Shown: piece after piece, positions 29,873-45,542 of the stretch
How the letters are laid out: each line of letters opens with the position of its first letter
Numbering within the stretch: position 1 is the stretch's first letter
From: a virus
DNA length: 61,786 nt
IMG/VR virus record: IMGVR_UViG_3300010885_010030
Location: 1-61,786 of that record
Reading direction: 5' to 3' (one strand)
Translations under genes and position numbers: made by a program
Notes under the pieces: model-generated
What the model was told of the DNA's origin: nothing
Database searches by the model: none
Seen by the model: only the letters and a program-made list of their open reading frames with translations

Positions 29873-30288
29873 GGGTCGTGTCCTTCACCGTGCCGGGTCA
29901 ACCTGTAGCGAAGGGCAGGGGGCGCGTGTCTATACGTGGTAGTCACGCTGTCGTTTACACGCCCGAGAAAACGCGCCGGTATGAGAATCAGGTGTCGGCT
30001 TACGCGGCTGAAGTAATGAGAAACACGCTCCCCATTGGCGGCCCGGTTGAAGTTGTTGTCGAGGCGTTTATGATGGTGCCAGCCTCATGGTCGCTAAGGA
30101 AGCGGTTATCGGCCATCGCGGGGCAAATCAAACCAATCACGAAGCCGGACCTCGACAACATCGTTAAAGCATTGGACGGCATGAACGGCATCGTTGTCGT
30201 TGATGACTCGCAGATCGTTAAGCTGACAGCCACCAAGCGGTACTCCGACATTCCGCAACTTATTGTCACCGTCATAGGGCAAGAATGA
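29869..30288 (+). CDS. rusA: RusA-family Holliday junction resolvase
   Basis: A 139-residue dimeric endonuclease that cuts four-way junctions. Visible RusA features: SFTVPGQPVAKGRGR at the start, the catalytic region KPDLDNIVKALDGMNGIVVVDDSQI with conserved Asp residues, and an even strand order. The start is GTG in a GTGA overlap with the regulator stop. It belongs with the primase-polymerase downstream and with the recombination genes across the divergent promoter. Confidence 0.88.
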   Translation: MRVVSFTVPGQPVAKGRGRVSIRGSHAVVYTPEKTRRYENQVSAYAAEVMRNTLPIGGPVEVVVEAFMMVPASWSLRKRLSAIAGQIKPITKPDLDNIVKALDGMNGIVVVDDSQIVKLTATKRYSDIPQLIVTVIGQE

Positions 30289-32534
30289 CTGACTTCAACA
30301 CGACCGCTACCCGGCTCGTAGAGCGGGGGTACTCGGTCATTCCGATCATCCCCGGCGAGAAGCGTCCCGGCGAGTATAGGGGCGAACAATGGGTTGGTAT
30401 GTCCAAGTGGCAGCGGTTTTGCGATAAGACCGCCAGCAAATTTCATTTGGATACGTGGGCTGGTTGGCCCAACCCGTCGATCTGTCTGGCGCTGGGGCGC
30501 GCCAGCAACGTCACCGCTATCGACTTCGACTACGGCGCGCCGGAAGTGCGGGCCGCGTTGGAGGCGTGTCTGCCCCCGTCCCCGGTTAAAAAGGTCGGCG
30601 CGAAGGGGTACACCGCCTTCTACCGGGGCGTTGCGTTGGTGTCCAAGAAGTACCTGCTGGACGGCGTTTCGGTCATCGAGGTGCTGGCTCAGGGCAAGCA
30701 GACTGTATTGCCGCCCAGCGTGCATCCCGAGGGCATGGCCTACAGATGGCTGACGCCCGATACCCTGGAAGACCTTACGGCGTCCGAGTTGCCAGAGTTG
30801 CCCCAAGACATACACGATAGAATTGCAAAAGCCCTGGAGCCATTTCAAGTCAAAGTTGAAAAACAGGCCGTTAATGGTAAAGCTATCCATACCCCTCACT
30901 CCGGCGACAATGATAGCTTTTGGCGTGATATCAATGATACCGCGTTGTTAAACCTAGATAGTTGGGTTCTCAGGTTGATCCCAGACGCCAAGCGCGGCGC
31001 GAATCGAGGATACAGGGCCATTGCCCATTGGCGGGACGGTGATGATTTCAATATTGGCATTACCCCTGAAGGCATAAGGGACTTTACCCGTGAACCGGGT
31101 GGCATGACCGCCATAGACTTGGTTATGGCCGTGACCGGCTCCACCATGGACGGGGCCACGACATGGCTACAGGACGCCCTAGGGATGCGCCAGGAGGCCG
31201 TTTTCGACGCCAAGGTGTTTGAGCCGCCTCCCGCCAAGATCAAGCCCACAGCGCCCTGGAAGAAGGTTGAGCCGGTAGCGGCGTTTAAACGTAAGTCCGG
31301 CACTCCAGCGGCCAAGGGTGCTGTCGGAAAGCTGACGGAATACATCAACGAAACGTCGATTCGCCCCCAGCCGGTGTTAGCCCTGGCGGCGGCGCTGTGC
31401 GCCATCGGCACCCTGGCGGGCCGCAAGTACCGCAGCCCGTCCAATTTGCGGACCAACCTGTTCGCCATCAGCCTCGCGGACTCCGGGGCTGGGAAGAACC
31501 ATAGCCGCCAGATCATAGACCGCATCTTCAGTGACTTCCTGGGGGCCGACAAGAAGATCGGCGGGTCCAAGATTGCCTCCGGCTCGGGCTTGTTGAGCGC
31601 CCTGCACCGCAGCCCGTCCATCCTGTTCCAAATCGACGAATTCGGGATGTTCTTGGGCGCGATGCTCGATAAGCGCGGCCCAAAGCATTTGATAGAAATT
31701 ATGTCGCACATGACTGAGTTGTTCACTTCTTCAAACCTGACGTATCACGGCATCGAGTACGCTGACCAAAAGGTTCGTCCCCGGCAGGAGATTATTCAGC
31801 CGTGTCTGTGTGTTTACGGCACCACGGTCCCCAGCCACTTCTGGAAGGCGCTGGAATCGAGCAACGCGGTGGATGGCTCTCTGGCCCGGTTCTTGATCTT
31901 TGAGTCGGAGGAAAATTACCCTGACGACCAAAACGCGCCGGAGAAAGAGCCGCCCGCTGATTTGATTAGTCTGCTCAAAAGAATAAACGAAGGGATCGGT
32001 GGTCTATCGTCTCTGCTAGATGGCGGTCATACGCCGGAGTTGATGCACGTTTCGTATGACGATGCGGCCACCAAGATGATTAAAGACATGAAGCTGGACA
32101 CGACAAAGAAGCTGAGGGCTTTGGAGGGCACGCCGTTTACATCGTTCTGGGCGCGGCGCGACGAATTAACAATCAAAGTCGCTATGATACATGCCATTGG
32201 GTGTGATCCCGAGAATCCGATTATCAACACTTACGATGTAGAGTTCGCTCGCGCCATTGTAGATCGGTCTATCAACCAGCTAGTTGACGGTGTTGAACGC
32301 TACGTTAGCGACAACACCGCCGAAAACTATAGCAAGCGCGTGATTGAGATTGTGCGTAAGGCTGGTGGGTCGATTGATAAGTCGGCGTTGTATAAGCGGA
32401 CGTTGTTCCTGGGCCGTGACAGAGACACAACGCTCAAGGCGCTGTTGGGTTCTGAAGACTTGATTGAAGTGATTAAAGAAACAGGCGGCAGACCTAAGAC
32501 AACCTACCGCCTGAAAGACGCCGCGCCTTTTTAA
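30285..32534 (+). CDS. Primase-polymerase / helicase-like replication protein
   Basis: This 749-residue protein has an N-terminal archaeo-eukaryotic primase (prim-pol) domain: DFDYG with metal-binding Asp80/Asp82 and LPPSVHPEG with His147. A linker follows (~185-340). The C-terminal half is a P-loop ATPase: SLADSGAGKNHS near 397-408 and ILFQIDEFGMFL as Walker B, as in DUF3987-type helicases. It should prime and unwind phage DNA. It overlaps the RusA stop by four bases and converges with the next gene. Confidence 0.82.
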   Translation: MTDFNTTATRLVERGYSVIPIIPGEKRPGEYRGEQWVGMSKWQRFCDKTASKFHLDTWAGWPNPSICLALGRASNVTAIDFDYGAPEVRAALEACLPPSPVKKVGAKGYTAFYRGVALVSKKYLLDGVSVIEVLAQGKQTVLPPSVHPEGMAYRWLTPDTLEDLTASELPELPQDIHDRIAKALEPFQVKVEKQAVNGKAIHTPHSGDNDSFWRDINDTALLNLDSWVLRLIPDAKRGANRGYRAIAHWRDGDDFNIGITPEGIRDFTREPGGMTAIDLVMAVTGSTMDGATTWLQDALGMRQEAVFDAKVFEPPPAKIKPTAPWKKVEPVAAFKRKSGTPAAKGAVGKLTEYINETSIRPQPVLALAAALCAIGTLAGRKYRSPSNLRTNLFAISLADSGAGKNHSRQIIDRIFSDFLGADKKIGGSKIASGSGLLSALHRSPSILFQIDEFGMFLGAMLDKRGPKHLIEIMSHMTELFTSSNLTYHGIEYADQKVRPRQEIIQPCLCVYGTTVPSHFWKALESSNAVDGSLARFLIFESEENYPDDQNAPEKEPPADLISLLKRINEGIGGLSSLLDGGHTPELMHVSYDDAATKMIKDMKLDTTKKLRALEGTPFTSFWARRDELTIKVAMIHAIGCDPENPIINTYDVEFARAIVDRSINQLVDGVERYVSDNTAENYSKRVIEIVRKAGGSIDKSALYKRTLFLGRDRDTTLKALLGSEDLIEVIKETGGRPKTTYRLKDAAPF

Positions 32535-33502: not shown

Positions 33503-34002
33503 TGTTTTACCGCCCTAAATTTTGATGCCATTTTTTCTAGTTGCGCTATTGAGATGTTGTCTCTGACCTTGGCCTTGGCGTTGGGGAGCCGAGCCGCCAC
33601 GGCGCGCTCGAACTTAGCAAGTCTGATTTCCCCCGCCGCTTGCGCTTCGCGGTTTCTCGCACTTTCTTCCAGCATCTCCCGTGTGGCTTCACGAATAGGC
33701 GTCATGCCATAGAGCGTGTAAACGTCCCAGAACTGCTGTCTGGCAATGCGGCCAGCAACACGGTTCGCAACGTCAGGGTTATCGAGGTTGGCTTTAACGC
33801 GGCCTGTTGCCATCGACATGGCCGATATGCGCTGTGCGCCAAAGTAATCGCGGATTACCTGTTTAGCGCCTTGGAGCATCAACAGGTCGCGCAAGTCGCG
33901 GTCTTTATTACCCGCGTTGACAAGAATGGTTGTCGCTGCCGCTGGTCTGTCTTTGGATTGCTTGAGGGCTTTCTGTGCCCATGATTTCAAATCTGATCGC
34001 AT
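33499..34002 (-). CDS. Hypothetical helical protein, 167 aa
   Basis: A mostly helical, basic protein (MRSDLKSWAQKALKQSKDRP at the start, AKVRDNISIAQLEKMASKF at the end) with no recognised domain. The start at 34002 is preferred because AAGGAA lies eight bases upstream; a longer frame reaches 34035. Its 5' part lies inside the end of the integrase fragment gene. Possibly DNA-associated. Confidence 0.6.
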   Translation of the reverse strand: MRSDLKSWAQKALKQSKDRPAAATTILVNAGNKDRDLRDLLMLQGAKQVIRDYFGAQRISAMSMATGRVKANLDNPDVANRVAGRIARQQFWDVYTLYGMTPIREATREMLEESARNREAQAAGEIRLAKFERAVAARLPNAKAKVRDNISIAQLEKMASKFRAVKQ

Positions 34003-34453
34003 TTGTTTTTTCCTTGCCTGGAAGTTGTTTAACAAATTCTAATGGGTTTTCTATCTTTAGGCCCCAGTCTATTCGCGCAGCCTTATAAACATTCCGTAAG
34101 TAATTAAATTCACGATTTACAGTAGACGGACCTACGGTTTTCAGTCGTTCTTTTCTGTATGAAATAAAATTTTGCAACGAGATTTGACATATAAGTTTTT
34201 GCGCGATGGGCTGCTTAAATGTAAATTTTAATACGTCTGTTTTATTTCTAATTGGCGGAGTTGTTTGTAGAAAGCGTAAAATAAGATCAGCCAAAGTAAA
34301 ATCTACAGCTTCTGATTTTTCTAGGTTTTTTTCTATCTCAGACGCCCACAACGCGGCCTCATCTTCTGTGTTGAAGGTTTTATAAATCGGGGCGTGCCCA
34401 GACTTTCTGATTTGAGCCAGCCACTTGGTTCTTCGGCGCGAGATTGTCGCCAT
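33908..34453 (-). pseudogene. Integrase fragment: N-terminal domains without catalytic domain
   Basis: The first ~140 of 181 residues look like a tyrosine recombinase: an arm-binding start (ISRRRTKWLAQIRKSGHAP, KTFNTEDEAALWASEIEKNL) and a core-binding segment (VGPSTVNREFNYLRNVYKAARIDWGL, ENPLEFVKQLPG). The R-H-R-Y catalytic domain is absent; the frame degenerates into unrelated residues and overlaps the next gene by ~95 bases. The DNA is more A/T-rich than its surroundings. It is probably a decayed integrase acquired from a temperate relative, though a retained DNA-binding role is possible. Confidence 0.65.
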
Positions 34454-34457
34454 AAGT

Positions 34458-34691
34458 TCACACCGTATACTTCTGGATCATCTCGGCTTGCGCGGCGGGG
34501 AAGCGTGTAAACACTTCCAGCAGACGCATAACACCACCGTGCGGCTCGGTCGTGCCGGACAGATAGCGGTAGATTGTCCGCAAGTCGCAGCCAAACACGG
34601 CGGCGGTTTGTTCGCGGGTTAAATTGGTGGCCTTGCACCATGCCGAGAATTTCTTTTGTTCCGGCGTAAGTTTCATCTTCTGATTATTCAC
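34458..34691 (-). CDS. HTH DNA-binding protein, 77 aa
   Basis: The segment TREQTAAVFGCDLRTIYRYLSG is a helix-turn-helix with a recognition helix at LRTIYRYL, followed by a helical tail. The GTG start at 34691 has AAGGA about nine bases upstream; an ATG five codons in is a weaker option. It is likely a local transcription regulator in the accessory cluster, next to the integrase fragment. Confidence 0.7.
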   Translation of the reverse strand: MNNQKMKLTPEQKKFSAWCKATNLTREQTAAVFGCDLRTIYRYLSGTTEPHGGVMRLLEVFTRFPAAQAEMIQKYTV

Positions 34692-35372: not shown

Positions 35373-35684
35373 TTACTCCCTTCTCATCTCAGCGCGGTAT
35401 TCGGCAGCAGCAGCGCGTTCGTCCGCAGTGCAATCCGCGCCGTGGGTTTCCATCTCCTCGTACAGCCGCGTACATTCATCAAGTTGGCAGAGTTCATCGT
35501 GAGTTGCGGGAACGCCGTCGACGAGCAAAGAGATCGCCTCGACCGCGGTGTACTCGGGCGGCTCGCCAGCACAGTCGTAGGTCGGGCCGCGTTGGGGTGA
35601 CGGCGGCGTGTATTCGTAGGTGATCTCAAGCTCGACGTCGTTCTCGCCGTCGAATGAGTGATTGGTTTTGTATGTGAGCTTCAT
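35373..35684 (-). CDS. Hypothetical acidic protein, 103 aa
   Basis: Rich in Glu/Asp with an N-terminal beta part (KLTYKTNHSFDGENDVELEI) and a helical C-terminal part. Members of this kind are frequent in phage accessory regions; no function is known. It abuts both neighbours. Confidence 0.55.
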   Translation of the reverse strand: MKLTYKTNHSFDGENDVELEITYEYTPPSPQRGPTYDCAGEPPEYTAVEAISLLVDGVPATHDELCQLDECTRLYEEMETHGADCTADERAAAAEYRAEMRRE

Positions 35685-35968
35685 TACATTCCCCGCAAAA
35701 AAGTCTGCACCATCTCAACGGCGCGTTCATCGTATCCGCCGACATTAAAACCCGGTGCGCGCTTCCAGTCGTAAACCGTGGCGGGGACGCTTTCGCCAGT
35801 GTCCTCGTCCACGAATAACAGTGACCATTCCGTAGTTGTTTTGCCATCGTCCAGCGGGCGGAACGGGTCGCCAAAAATGGCGGTCAGGTCGCTAACGTCG
35901 GCCATAATGTGGCCTTGCAAGCATGAGCCGTTTAAACAGGATGCGGAGAGGTTGATAACTTTTTTCAT
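35684..35968 (-). CDS. Hypothetical protein, 94 aa
   Basis: An alpha/beta soluble protein with an N-terminal CLNGSC pair and a C-terminal helix (ERAVEMVQTFL). GAGGAACCC is six bases before the ATG at 35968. An ATG at 35905 would remove the Cys pair. Function unknown. Confidence 0.55.
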   Translation of the reverse strand: MKKVINLSASCLNGSCLQGHIMADVSDLTAIFGDPFRPLDDGKTTTEWSLLFVDEDTGESVPATVYDWKRAPGFNVGGYDERAVEMVQTFLRGM

Positions 35969-36013: not shown

Positions 36014-36034
36014 CGTCACGGTGTCAATCGGTCA
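36014..36034. promoter_or_regulatory. Three tandem NGTCA boxes at 8-bp period
   Basis: CGTCA-CGG-TGTCA-ATC-GGTCA: three boxes with exact 8-base steps, upstream of the 35968 gene start. The same pattern recurs at 39194-39206 and 41967-42101. A tandem-box operator is inferred. Confidence 0.4.
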
Positions 36035-36109: not shown

Positions 36110-36198
36110 GGCGCACCGTGCGCGATGGCGGCGGCGATGGTGATGGCAAGCAATAGGGTGAGGCGGAGGTATAGCTGGAGGCGGAGGGCGGGGGTCAT
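36106..36198 (-). CDS. Possible 30-aa membrane or exported peptide
   Basis: It starts MTPALRLQLYLRLTLLLAIT and ends AIAHGAP: two Arg then a hydrophobic stretch, like a signal or anchor. It is stop-start coupled to the next tiny gene. Low certainty. Confidence 0.35.
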   Translation of the reverse strand: MTPALRLQLYLRLTLLLAITIAAAIAHGAP

Positions 36199-38804: not shown

Positions 38805-39158
38805 TCAGCGGCCTTCAATCTTGCGCTCAAGTTCAGCAAGACGCGCCGTCAAACGTTCCTGTTCGGCGCGGGCTTCGGCGGCTTCCGGGTCGCCATAGGC
38901 CGACTCGATTTGAGCGTTACAGTGGGCGCAATATTCGGGCGCGCCCTCCCAGTGGATTTGCACACCCTCGCACCGCCACCCATCGCAAGAGCGGGAGATT
39001 GTGGCGCGGGCAATAGCGGGAAATTCTGATTTGGCGCAATCGGTGCACAGCACCTCCCCGTCAGACATAACGAGTAAAAGGGGGTAGCCTCCGGGCCAAG
39101 CGTATTTGTGGCGGGCGGCGTGTTTTACGTCTTTTAGGATGTGGGCGGGGCTGGGCAT
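38805..39158 (-). CDS. Putative zinc-binding protein, 117 aa
   Basis: Cys pairs CTDCAKSEF and CAHCNAQ, separated by SCDGWRC, suggest zinc binding; a charged coiled helix (EAAEARAEQERLTARLAEL) ends the protein. It is found in the leftward accessory cluster. Function unknown. Confidence 0.6.
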   Translation of the reverse strand: MPSPAHILKDVKHAARHKYAWPGGYPLLLVMSDGEVLCTDCAKSEFPAIARATISRSCDGWRCEGVQIHWEGAPEYCAHCNAQIESAYGDPEAAEARAEQERLTARLAELERKIEGR

Positions 39159-39254
39159 GGGTTCGGTTTCCTTCTGTCTGTTTGCGTTCGTGGTGGCAAT
39201 ATGTCATGCGGGCGGGCGTGTGTATAGTGTGGATAGAATTACATGGTTGTAATG

Positions 39255-41728: not shown

Positions 41729-41938
41729 CTATCTTCCGTATTCGGGGTTCAAGGACGGGTTCTCGGCGGTGTCAGCTTGGATACACCAAGCGTCGTAGGC
41801 TTCCGTCAAGAGAGTGTATTGACGCCCGACGAGGGCGTGCTTTTCCCCTGCGCGGAAATGAGCGTCGGGGTATTCCTTGCCGCTTTCAATGAGGGCAATC
41901 ATGGTTTCGAGTGCGGCTTCGATGCGGTTCGGTTTCAT
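41729..41938 (-). CDS. Hypothetical protein, 69 aa
   Basis: A helical small protein (RIEAALETMIALIESGKEYPD) without a recognised domain. It is the first leftward gene after the 41.9-42.4 kb control region and lies six bases before the SprT-like gene. Confidence 0.6.
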   Translation of the reverse strand: MKPNRIEAALETMIALIESGKEYPDAHFRAGEKHALVGRQYTLLTEAYDAWCIQADTAENPSLNPEYGR

Positions 41939-41966
41939 GGTGCGGTGTTCCCTTCGTTGTTTACAG

Positions 41967-42101
41967 TGTCAATGTGTCATCGATGTTTACACGGCGCAAG
42001 GGGAACGTGACAACATGACAGCTTTGCAATGTTAGCAGAACAATACTAGAACGAATCGAATGTCAGCATGTCATGGCACTAGGGTAGCTGACAGATTGAC
42101 G
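41967..42101. promoter_or_regulatory. Four paired TGTCA boxes with fixed 8-bp step
   Basis: TGTCA-ATG-TGTCA (41967-41979), TGACA-ACA-TGACA (42008-42020), TGTCA-GCA-TGTCA (42061-42073) and TGACA-GAT-TGACG (42089-42101). Each pair has a 3-base spacer; consecutive pairs point toward each other. They lie before the leftward operon. An operator for a tandem-box binder (for example ribbon-helix-helix type) or replication iterons are the likely readings. Confidence 0.55.
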
Positions 42102-42376
42102 GCCATCTGTTGGGCCTTAAAAGCGGTTCTAGGTAATGCGTGCAATGATGGGGGTCGCGTGCGCGTGTTGCGTGTGGTTTGAGGCCGAAACTGTAGCGAG
42201 GCGAAACCATACCCCCACGGAGGCGGAATGACGGCAGCGCCGGTGCCGGTGCTGTAATGGTAACCCACTCACCCCCATTCCCAATTTTCCCCTACAAAAT
42301 TTTTTTGCCCCAATTTTTCCCCTTGCCTCTACACACTCCGTATGCAACGAGTGTGTAATCACAACGCGAGGACCAC
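42102..42376. other. Non-coding divergent control region with nested inverted repeats
   Basis: Nested arms TGGGGGT (42149-42155) with ACCCCCA (42211-42217) and TGGTTT (42175-42180) with AAACCA (42204-42209) could fold into a large hairpin. Next come A/T runs (42283-42320). No gene is seen. An origin or structured leader is possible. Confidence 0.4.
42330..42357. promoter_or_regulatory. Palindromic operator before the sugar operon
   Basis: TACACACTC-N10-GAGTGTGTA, a perfect 9-base inverted repeat, ends 19 bases before the first ATG of the rightward operon. A repressor dimer site is likely. No strong -35/-10 pair could be fixed. Confidence 0.55.
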
Positions 42377-42775
42377 ATGGCGCAAGATAAGCTGCACCCA
42401 CACGTAATCCGTTTCATGCGTGGCCGGAGGGACATCTGGCTGGATGAGTCCATCAGCGACCACAAGGGCGCACCCGCGATTCGCGGTATCCAACTCCGGC
42501 GCGTTAAGGAGACGGAGGTGCGCGGTGCCGAGAGCTACCACCCATTTACCTACACCGGCTGGATGTACTACGGGCAGGCGTTTGCCATTGAGACGGAGTT
42601 CACACGCAGCAAGAACCCGCTGTCACACGATCAGCTAGACTGGCTGAACGACTTCGCCAAGGCTGGCGGTCAGTACATCGAAGCCCGCACGATGGACGAT
42701 GTACGGGACGCGCTAGGCCGGGAAGAACCCCAGCCGTGGAAAGAATACGAGATGCGCGTTACGAAGGTGAAGTAG
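42377..42775 (+). CDS. Putative VRR-NUC-like protein, 132 aa
   Basis: The C-terminal half (FAIETEFTRSKNPLSHDQL, then WLNDFAKAGGQYIEARTMDD) resembles the end of VRR-NUC nucleases, where a Glu-x-Lys is followed by a Gln and a Gly-rich strand. The expected catalytic Lys is not clear, so it may be inactive or unrelated. First gene of the rightward operon; GAGGACC precedes the ATG. Confidence 0.45.
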   Translation: MAQDKLHPHVIRFMRGRRDIWLDESISDHKGAPAIRGIQLRRVKETEVRGAESYHPFTYTGWMYYGQAFAIETEFTRSKNPLSHDQLDWLNDFAKAGGQYIEARTMDDVRDALGREEPQPWKEYEMRVTKVK

Positions 42776-42963: not shown

Positions 42964-43220
42964 ATTACAAGTTCGAAATCACCCCCGACATGGTACAGCG
43001 CGCATATGACGCGGTGCCCAATGCGCTGCTGTTTAAATCTACGGTGGAGGCCATGCTCGACGCCGCGCTCAATCCGCCGTCCGAGCCGGAGATTGTGGTG
43101 ACGGATGAGATGGAACAGGCTGGCAGTCTGGTGGTGGAACGTAGGTTTCACTTCTCGACTGCCAATGGTGATGTCGCGTGTGACGTATACCGCGCCATGC
43201 GGAAGCTGGAGCCGAAATGA
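42960..43220 (+). CDS. Hypothetical protein, 86 aa
   Basis: An alpha/beta protein (YKFEITPDMVQRAYDAVP, DVACDVYRAMRKLEP) with no recognised domain. It overlaps both the preceding stop and the amidotransferase start (ATGA), so it is co-translated with the sugar genes. Confidence 0.6.
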   Translation: MNYKFEITPDMVQRAYDAVPNALLFKSTVEAMLDAALNPPSEPEIVVTDEMEQAGSLVVERRFHFSTANGDVACDVYRAMRKLEPK

Positions 43221-44353
43221 AATCCTGCACTCGCTGTCTCAACACCGAAACCGCAGACACCATTTCATTCAACGCGGCTGGCGCGTGTTCCGTCTGCGTG
43301 CAAGTAGACCATAAGCTGACGGCGGTGGACTGGAATGAACGGAAGATGGAGTTGCACTCCATCATTACCCAGGCCCGCGCCCGCAACGGCCAGTACGACT
43401 GCATTGTGCCCTTCAGCGGCGGCAAGGACTCGACGTACCAGCTTTGGTATGTCGTGACGCAGCTACGTCTGCGCCCGCTGGTGGTGCGGTATAACCATTG
43501 GGGCAATCGCCCGCAGTTGGAGAAGAACAATGCGCGCACGTTTAAAGCACTCGGAGTTGAGGTCTTGGACTTCAAACCCAACTGGAATGTCGTTAAGGCG
43601 ACGATGCTAGAGGCGCTCACTCGCAAGGGTGATAGCTGCTGGCATTGTCACACGGGAGTCTACTCGTTTCCGATGCACATGGCGCTCAAGTTTGACACGC
43701 CGCTGATCTTCTGGGGCGAGAGCCTCAAAGAGTACCAGTCCTGGCTCGACCCCACTGAGAAAGAGAATGTCGATGAGGTGCGTTTTAACCGCGCCATGAA
43801 TCTCGGCATGACGGCTGACGATATGTGGGAGTTCATCAAAGACGCCAACCCCAGCCTCGACCGGCGCGATTTGCATTGGCACACGTATCCGCCGAAGGCC
43901 GAGTTGGACAAACTCAACGTCAAGAGCATCTGTCTCGGTGATTACGTGCGTTGGGACACGCAGCGCCAAGTCGCCCTGATTAAGGACCACCTCGGCTGGG
44001 AGGGCGATGAGGTAGAGGGCATCCCTCCGCAGTTTGATTACGAAAAGATTGAGTGCCAGTTCCAAGGCGTGCGCGATTGGTTGAAGTACATCAAGCGCGG
44101 CTTTGGGCGGACCAACCATCTGGCCAACATCGAGATACGGCACGGGCGTATGGACCGCATTACCGGCCAACAACTCGCAAACGCTTACGATGGCAAAGAG
44201 CCTGCGTCCCTTGGCTGGTTCCTACAGACCATTGGCATCACGCGTGAGGACTTCTACGAGATTGCGCTGTCGCATGTGATTGATCCGTGGGAATTTGACG
44301 GGTCAGCCATTGTGACTGGCAAAGAACTGCATGACATGAAGGAATGGATATGA
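43217..44353 (+). CDS. N-acetyl sugar amidotransferase (WbuX/WbpG/PseA/PtmG family)
   Basis: These enzymes turn an acetamido group on a sugar into an acetamidino group, using ammonia and ATP, in O-antigen and in nonulosonic acid pathways. The protein (378 aa, normal length) has an N-terminal Cys pair set (CTRC, CSVC), the PP-loop FSGGKDS near residues 66-72, a second CWHCH cluster and the family-typical QLWYVVTQLRLRPLVVRYNH. It leads the sugar part of the operon and is followed, after one insert gene, by a HisF-like partner, as in wbpG-hisF2 loci. The substrate (legionaminic acid precursor or end product) is inferred. Confidence 0.85.
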   Translation: MKSCTRCLNTETADTISFNAAGACSVCVQVDHKLTAVDWNERKMELHSIITQARARNGQYDCIVPFSGGKDSTYQLWYVVTQLRLRPLVVRYNHWGNRPQLEKNNARTFKALGVEVLDFKPNWNVVKATMLEALTRKGDSCWHCHTGVYSFPMHMALKFDTPLIFWGESLKEYQSWLDPTEKENVDEVRFNRAMNLGMTADDMWEFIKDANPSLDRRDLHWHTYPPKAELDKLNVKSICLGDYVRWDTQRQVALIKDHLGWEGDEVEGIPPQFDYEKIECQFQGVRDWLKYIKRGFGRTNHLANIEIRHGRMDRITGQQLANAYDGKEPASLGWFLQTIGITREDFYEIALSHVIDPWEFDGSAIVTGKELHDMKEWI

Positions 44354-44889
44354 AGAAGCTACTGATTGCTGCGGTGCTAACGCTTACGGCTCCCGCCCAT
44401 GCTTTGACAATTCAAGTCTGCACAGGCGAGTTCGCTCTGTGCGCGGCCTCACCTACAACGCCCGTCCCCGGCCAGACCATCACCGTCAACGGCAAGGTCT
44501 TCCCGCTGGGCGTTGCTGTATGTCCCGTACTGCGCGGCCCTGCGTTTGCAGACATGGACCTGACGGGTGGCTCATGCGCCAAGCCCGGTCCCGGTAAAGT
44601 CTGGAGCCTGTTCCAACCCCGTGACAGCTACCCGCAAGCGCCGACTTGGGCCAATACCCCGGCGGTGTTTCGTAAGTTCACAACGACCACTGCGGCTGGT
44701 GGCGGCATGAGCAATATGTTTTCGTTTCCCTGCACTGTGCAATCCAAGAAGATCAACGGAGCCAAACTGGCTGATTGCTATGGCCCGATGAACGAAAGCC
44801 CAACGGGCGTTGCGGTTGCTGCTGGTACTGAAGTGATGACGCAATCCCCCGTGGGTGCGAGTGATCCTGTTGGCGGGCCTACGCCGTAG
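44350..44889 (+). CDS. Secreted Cys-rich protein, 179 aa
   Basis: A clear Sec signal peptide (MKKLLIAAVLTLTAPAHA) with cleavage likely after AHA, then a mature part with six cysteines (CTGEFALC, VCPVL, GSCAK, FPCTV, DCYG) that could form disulfides in the periplasm. No family was recognised. AAGGA precedes the ATG at 44350, which overlaps the amidotransferase stop. It sits between the two amidination genes, an odd place; a role in host envelope change or superinfection exclusion is possible. Confidence 0.7.
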   Translation: MKKLLIAAVLTLTAPAHALTIQVCTGEFALCAASPTTPVPGQTITVNGKVFPLGVAVCPVLRGPAFADMDLTGGSCAKPGPGKVWSLFQPRDSYPQAPTWANTPAVFRKFTTTTAAGGGMSNMFSFPCTVQSKKINGAKLADCYGPMNESPTGVAVAAGTEVMTQSPVGASDPVGGPTP

Positions 44890-45542
44890 TGCTGGCTAAA
44901 CGTATCATTGCGAAACTACTGATCGAAGACGGCAGGCTGGTGAAGTACAAACAGTTCACGCAGTCCTGCCGTCTGGCTGGGAACCCTGTGTCTACGGCAT
45001 CGACATTAGAGGACCAATGTGTCGATGAGTTCTACATCTGTTCCATCGGCGTGATTGATCCGGCGTTGGTGCGTGAGATGACACGCAAAGTCTTCACCCC
45101 CGTCACGGTCGGCGGCTCGCTCCATACGATGGAACAAGTGGACGAACTGATTAAAGACTGCGGCACGGATCGTGTCGTGATTAAAGACCCCGTGTTGGGC
45201 GAGGCCGTCGCCAACAAATATGGCCAGCAAGCTGTGGCCTACCCTATTGACTATCACACGAAGTGTGTAGAGAGTGTACCTGACTACGCAGGGGAAGTTA
45301 TGCTGACTGACATCGACAGAGACGGCATGGGCACGGGGTTTGATCTGGAAGTCTTGAAGCACCAGTGGTCGGTGCCGGTTGTGATTGCCGGTGGCTGCGG
45401 CAAGCTCGATCACGTTAAGCAGGCTTTCGATGCGGGTGCCGATGGTGTCGCCATCTCCACCATGTTTATCTTCAGCGATAAGTCACCGATTAAACTACGC
45501 TCTTGGCTCGTATCCGAGGGCTGCAACGTGAGGGATGTGTGA
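44889..45542 (+). CDS. HisF-like cyclase subunit (HisF2/WbuZ type)
   Basis: A TIM-barrel relative of imidazole glycerol phosphate synthase HisF. DGRLVKYKQF near the N-terminus and TDIDRDGMGTGFD with IAGGCGK later match the two phosphate-binding halves. At 217 residues it is shorter than housekeeping HisF (~250), as in surface-sugar loci. In those loci HisF2 channels ammonia from a HisH2 glutaminase to the amidotransferase; no HisH-like gene was found here. The start is GTG in TAGTG overlap. Confidence 0.78.
   Translation: MLAKRIIAKLLIEDGRLVKYKQFTQSCRLAGNPVSTASTLEDQCVDEFYICSIGVIDPALVREMTRKVFTPVTVGGSLHTMEQVDELIKDCGTDRVVIKDPVLGEAVANKYGQQAVAYPIDYHTKCVESVPDYAGEVMLTDIDRDGMGTGFDLEVLKHQWSVPVVIAGGCGKLDHVKQAFDAGADGVAISTMFIFSDKSPIKLRSWLVSEGCNVRDV

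Follow-up and report, generated by a model that had tools for sequence, protein, structure and literature searches.

Paired TGTCA boxes at an 8-bp step as a putative conserved operator array and early regulon of a phage

The stretch shown above raises the question of what four pairs of TGTCA boxes, lying between two divergent gene sets of a phage, are for: operators of a repressor, iterons of a replication origin, or sites of another kind. The window, i.e. the whole 61,786-nucleotide stretch that was analysed (IMG/VR record IMGVR_UViG_3300010885_010030), comprises a leftward gene set at 22.9-41.9 kb, the array region and a rightward set at 42.4-61 kb, which continues into structural genes at the window start. 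The leftward set encodes a helicase, a Cas4-type exonuclease, an SSB, a Sak4-like annealing protein and many small ORFs without known function, and a primase-like ORF (30285-32534) lies on the plus strand inside this stretch. The rightward set includes sugar-modification genes, terminase and portal, the last of which shows its best likeness (35-37% identity) to a freshwater phage, HTVC023P-type pelagiphages and Roseobacter phages. Presumably the phage is podovirus-like, and it is taken to be lytic because neither the window nor six relatives yielded an integrase catalytic domain (PF00589). Judged from sequence, the boxes are a genuine conserved phage operator array and regulon. With slightly better than even confidence, the locus is read as a divergent control region operated by a small phage-encoded ribbon-helix-helix (RHH) repressor on the paired boxes.

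Among the sugar-modification genes, the proteins encoded at 43217-45542 resemble a sugar amidotransferase set, with aminotransferase and epimerase genes next in line. The set comprises a 378-aa protein whose start reads CxRC...CSVC and which we take to be WbpG/PseA-like, the product of ORF 44344-44889, for which HisH-like is a guess as no family match was found, and a HisF-type protein matching Pfam His_biosynth. Conservation of the 378-aa protein in relatives is 87-98%; a genome scan with it returned only bacterial homologues of 30-36% identity, spread over many phyla, and pointed to no host.

The four pairs lie in the divergent intergenic region 41939-42376 (Table 1). Each operator spans 13 bp, in which a TGWCA box is repeated directly after 8 bp. 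The pairs and all coordinates given in the initial annotation are correct, the pair at 42089 carrying one mismatch. Its description of each pair as facing the next holds for pairs 1/2 and 3/4, whereas pairs 2/3 stand back to back. The end of pair 1 is 28 nt from the ATG of the first leftward ORF, and pair 2 overlaps a degenerate ATTACA-N4-TGTAAT dyad as well as the -35-like hexamer of the rightward promoter-like match. Immediately 5' of the first rightward gene is an inverted repeat, ACACACTC-N10-GAGTGTGT (42331-42356), which is present in some form in the relatives examined, including three (G005-G007) that lack the four-pair array; it may be a hairpin leader or a palindromic operator. The equivalent intergenic region of relatives is occupied by origin-like or structural arrays of palindromic ATAGC/GCTAT repeats (ATAGCAAGCTATGGATAGC...), seen in L012 (9400-9800), L017 (950-1250) and L018 (4535-4720), which are absent or reduced in the window.

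Table 1 Features of the array region, of the related early sites and of the candidate binders in the window. G001-G007 are related genomes.
Feature	Coordinates	Strand	Description
Operator pair 1	41967..41979	+	TGTCA-ATG-TGTCA; kept in G001, G002 and G003, altered in G004
Operator pair 2	42008..42020	-	TGTCA-TGT-TGTCA, read on the minus strand
Operator pair 3	42061..42073	+	TGTCA-GCA-TGTCA; present in 5/5 genomes
Operator pair 4	42089..42101	-	CGTCA-ATC-TGTCA on the minus strand (TGACA-N3-TGACG on plus); one mismatch; absent in G004
Core between pairs 2 and 3	42021..42060		32/40 bases invariant in four genomes (window, G001-G003)
LexA-like motif	42038..42052	+	GAAC-N7-GAAC; middle of array; form of Caulobacter-type LexA box
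Rightward sigma-70-like match	42015..42044	+	ATGACA-18-AACAAT; consensus match alone; only such match in the region
69-aa ORF	41729..41938	-	First leftward gene, behind pair 1; other genes in its place in relatives
132-aa ORF	42377..42775	+	First rightward gene; conserved in G001-G007
Three-box array	36014..36034	+	CGTCA-CGG-TGTCA-ATC-GGTCA; three boxes at 8-bp step, upstream of leftward ORF 35684-35968
94-aa early ORF	35684..35968	-	Behind the three-box array
Operator pair at 39.2 kb	39194..39206	+	TGGCA-ATA-TGTCA; 35 nt to ATG of leftward ORF 38805-39158
-10-like element	39219..39231	-	CACACTATACACA; upstream of the 39194 operator; in five genomes
Perfect dyad	39238..39253		ATTACA-N4-TGTAAT; -35 region of the conserved 39.2-kb early promoter (predicted)
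117-aa early ORF	38805..39158	-	PHROG 18452; behind the 39194 operator
77-aa HTH protein	34458..34691	-	MqsA C-terminal domain-like; early region; rival binder
RHH1, 50 aa	48924..49076	+	HicB-C-terminal/CopG-like; candidate binder
RHH2, 61 aa	52896..53081	+	Weakly RHH-like; invariant Q8-L-N10-x-R12; candidate binder

Motif enrichment and conservation in related phages had been put forward as checks on the boxes, and both came out in their favour. Exact TGTCA-N3-TGTCA pairs occur three times in 61,786 bases (41967 +, 42008 - and 42061 +) compared with 0.09 expected by shuffling, and none of 100 shuffles reached three. Seven exact TGWCA boxes fall within 145 bp, where 0.23 are expected; 300 first-order-Markov randomisations never gave more than five, and gave five only once. 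When gaps of 0-15 bases between TGTCA/TGACA boxes were counted in the window, N3 was found three times, with otherwise a single N8 and a single N15. Sites with at most one mismatch number 10 in the window versus about 2.8 expected, and near-matches at 36193 and 41089, which overlap start codons, are probably due to chance. The corresponding count in G004, 8 versus 5.8 expected, is by number alone not above chance.

Four IMG/VR contigs carry the array, namely G001 (L004), G002, G003 and G004. In the first three, all four pairs are spaced by exactly 41, 53 and 28 bp, as in the window; in G004 pairs 1-3 are partly altered, the spacings are 39 and 53, and pair 4 is lost. Alignment of the window with G001-G003 shows that 38/40 box bases are invariant, compared with 4/12 spacer and 27/68 other flanking positions (boxes versus spacers plus other flank, 31/80 invariant; Fisher P = 4.6e-10). 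Retention of the boxes and their distances while the spacers drift is the pattern of a protein footprint. The similarly well-preserved stretch between pairs 2 and 3 is a probable divergent promoter core. In G006, a 31-kb fragment, and in G007, box pairs do not exceed the chance level, and in both the early module at this locus has been replaced. Further afield, most of the matches listed in a scan of viral contigs for AGAACAATACNNGAAC were due to chance, a contig scan for the geometry of pairs 3/4 returned this phage's relatives and unrelated sequences and nothing else, and a promoter motif scan added two contigs, both unrelated. The array region had no match among phage DNA records. Phage DSL-LC04 looks too different from the window in gene order and annotated genes for its sites to be compared.

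The same boxes recur before other early genes. At 36014-36034, the three boxes pointed out initially do form an array with 8-bp spacing, but the individual boxes (CGTCA/TGTCA/GGTCA) share only GTCA. Counterparts are found in G002, G004 and L202, where the third box is weaker, and in G005, where a three-box array precedes another gene. The pair at 39194, whose sequence is as originally written, has counterparts in G001, G002, G004 and G005. All sites that precede leftward early genes point the same way with respect to the gene, and for pair 1 and the 39.2-kb sites 23-35 nt separate the end of the site from the start codon. A -10-like CACACTWTACAC / TATACA ends 14 nt ahead of the 39194 operator, and the ATTACA-N4-TGTAAT dyad in the predicted -35 region is possibly the site of a second regulator. 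At this predicted promoter, the 60 upstream bp, -10-like element and dyad included, are 67-100% identical in five genomes, while the genes behind it are four unrelated ORFs. Operators of this kind thus form a predicted promoter/operator regulon, in which control cassettes evidently persist while the genes behind them are exchanged. Retention of the cassettes across gene swaps rules out that the boxes are purely an origin feature, and transcription control becomes the simplest explanation.

How the boxes are read bears on the identity of the binder. TGWCA is nearly self-complementary, so that a pair can be read as a direct repeat or, save for the box centres, as a palindrome. Of 24 distinct sites, the box centres agree with a direct repeat in 18 and with a palindrome in 2, a result biased by the direct-repeat template of the search. 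Unfiltered exact N3 pairs, direct to inverted, number 3:0 in the window, 2:0 in G002, 3:0 in G003, 2:1 in G004 and 1:1 in G001. Together with the three-box arrays, the direct-repeat agreement speaks for dimers stacked one to a box, as is known for RHH repressors. The pairs and triplets at 8 bp, above chance and conserved, have the form of an RHH operator array, in which at least two short boxes repeat every ~7-8 bp. The RHH stacking suggested at the outset, with MetJ as its model, is therefore partly supported, in that the strict step, the three-box arrays and the predicted promoter-side position fit tandem RHH repressors, RHH1 and RHH2 being candidate binders.

The phage does encode two RHH-like proteins, as was claimed, although their matches are weak and both also occur in the box-less G006 and G007. 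RHH1 matches PF15919 (E 1.5e-4) and PF01402 (E 0.026), in each case below the curated cut-off, and HicB in the PDB (E 0.0037); its predicted strand, KKLRINITIT, is nearly invariant. Matches of RHH2 are very weak (VapB/RHH, E 0.01-0.07 only). The predicted folds of both are of low confidence and gave no significant structural match. RHH1 and RHH2 are conserved in G002-G007, so their presence does not track the boxes; since the early module differs in G006 and G007, presence there is not decisive. A third RHH-like protein is encoded in the early region of G002 (L173; 17727-17960) and G005 (L180; 17978-18214). It was rejected as the binder, since neither the window nor G004 yielded a copy and it is thus not required.

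The strongest rival keeps the operator regulon and assigns it to the 77-aa HTH protein, a dimer of which would treat the 13 bp as an imperfect palindrome. Only the box centres break the symmetry of TGNCA-N3-TGNCA, and the MqsA operator, AACCT-N3-AGGTT, has the same 13-bp geometry. The HTH protein is present in all site-bearing genomes that cover the early region (86% identical in G002, 77% in G004 and 49% in G005) with a conserved recognition helix, and in the site-less G007 it is about 31% identical with an altered helix; it follows the presence of sites slightly better than RHH1 or RHH2. Neither it nor RHH1 had a match among phage DNA records. Against its binding the boxes, the centres are A...A in those 18 template-biased sites, where a palindrome would want A...T, and three-box arrays, hard to interpret as dimer sites, appear to fit tandem binding better than a single HTH dimer. 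Moreover, the same promoters carry a separate true dyad, ATTACA-N4-TGTAAT, which would be a more natural target for an HTH, and the protein may bind there instead. On balance this assignment seems rather unlikely, albeit worth keeping in view. Less probable again is a regulator encoded by the host, or a further phage protein in which no DNA-binding domain is recognisable. Many early ORFs lack a family match, which leaves room for such a protein, but no host protein that binds TGTCA-N3-TGTCA was identified and the phage owns candidate regulators.

Origin iterons bound by an initiator were the alternative considered from the start, and their subordinate place is borne out. The long intergenic region with AT-rich runs, the conserved inverted repeat at 42331-42356 and the ATAGC/GCTAT arrays of relatives would suit an origin. 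However, the boxes lie before single early genes kilobases away, in constant position and orientation to the start codon, for which iterons are rejected as the main reading. Iterons are also usually longer identical units in one orientation, whereas the boxes alternate, and the GC skew does not clearly change course at 42 kb; we regard iterons as very unlikely. Still more improbable are attP arm-type sites of a tyrosine integrase. Paired arm sites flanking a conserved core are similar in outline, and an AT-rich integrase N-terminal fragment (33908-34453) contains arm-binding and core-binding parts. The sites nevertheless recur beyond the array, and the reading was rejected on the missing catalytic domain, which the fragment also lacks. 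The fragment, not found among 15 related records, is apparently a recent insertion. Finally, the opposed pairs are reverse-complementary in their box bases and might form RNA hairpins, a reading refuted by the 3-nt spacers, which do not pair (0-1 of 3 complementary, in four genomes, with no co-variation).

The array core also contains a GAAC-N7-GAAC motif. The Caulobacter SOS box is GTTC-N7-GTTC (PMC9578287). The motif is retained in five genomes, with two variable bases inside it, and occurs four times in the window versus 1.6 expected. Since conservation extends over the entire core and such motifs are not rare, LexA-type host input is a lead only. An extension that we consider improbable would join a built-in host LexA box to the four-operator RHH array, giving dual control by a phage repressor and host DNA damage without an integrase, with the same operator cassettes serving as conserved docking promoters for exchanged accessory early genes.

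In the preferred reading, a divergent control region worked by a phage RHH repressor, the four operators would stand at fixed distances around the 40-bp promoter core as the main divergent control region, and like operators would lie close to where other early units are transcribed leftward. An RHH dimer would occupy each box and cooperate with its neighbours 8 bp away. The repressor would most likely be RHH1 or RHH2, both encoded among the rightward genes. Expression of the rightward genes would supply the repressor, and the early promoters together with the divergent pair of the array would then be turned down. Starting from the boxes, their step, their conservation, their recurrence before early genes and their survival of gene swaps, all directly observed, we infer repression as the effect and an RHH protein as the binder. 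The feedback timing and the exact promoters, at the array and at the early genes alike, are likewise predictions from the arrangement of sequence elements.

The array and the named candidate repressors would give this related phage group a testable early switch, and the persistent promoter-operator cassettes would offer a sequence handle for accessory early genes. Phage accessory early genes often act on the host. In HTVC027P, a phage of the HTVC023P type, every early expressed gene is of unknown function and host RNA polymerase is needed throughout, according to the transcriptome (PMC12753301).

Among known systems, the RHH omega protein binds 7-bp repeats, direct or inverted, over promoters (PMC9499535). 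As with omega (ParB-pSM19035) and its 5'-WATCACW-3' heptads, short non-palindromic boxes at a fixed step, both direct and opposed, overlap the predicted promoters of several operons here, and a small RHH regulator is the presumed binder. Omega differs in its contiguous 7-bp steps, runs of 7-10 boxes and role in partition, compared with an 8-bp step and pairs or triplets in a phage; unlike in the omega system, no partition ATPase was identified here. The met boxes of MetJ, a host regulator that uses SAM, are 8 bp. The 8-bp step, the use of at least two tandem boxes and the nearly self-complementary box (TGWCA) are shared with MetJ, while the box sequence is different and no MetJ homologue was identified. 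ParG, an RHH-type autorepressor of plasmid partition, recognises ACTC boxes, tetramer repeats with AT-rich spacers whose 4+4 arrangement gives an 8-bp step. The short box plus spacer is similar here, although the spacers are not notably AT-rich. Arc of P22 is a small phage RHH repressor with a Q-x-N-x-R strand and operator half-sites about 11 bp apart. The predicted strand of RHH2 has the same Q-x-N-x-R, a likeness that is a short motif rather than demonstrated homology, and the step here is 8 bp. Most likely, therefore, the array is a known kind of switch, here in an unstudied phage group.
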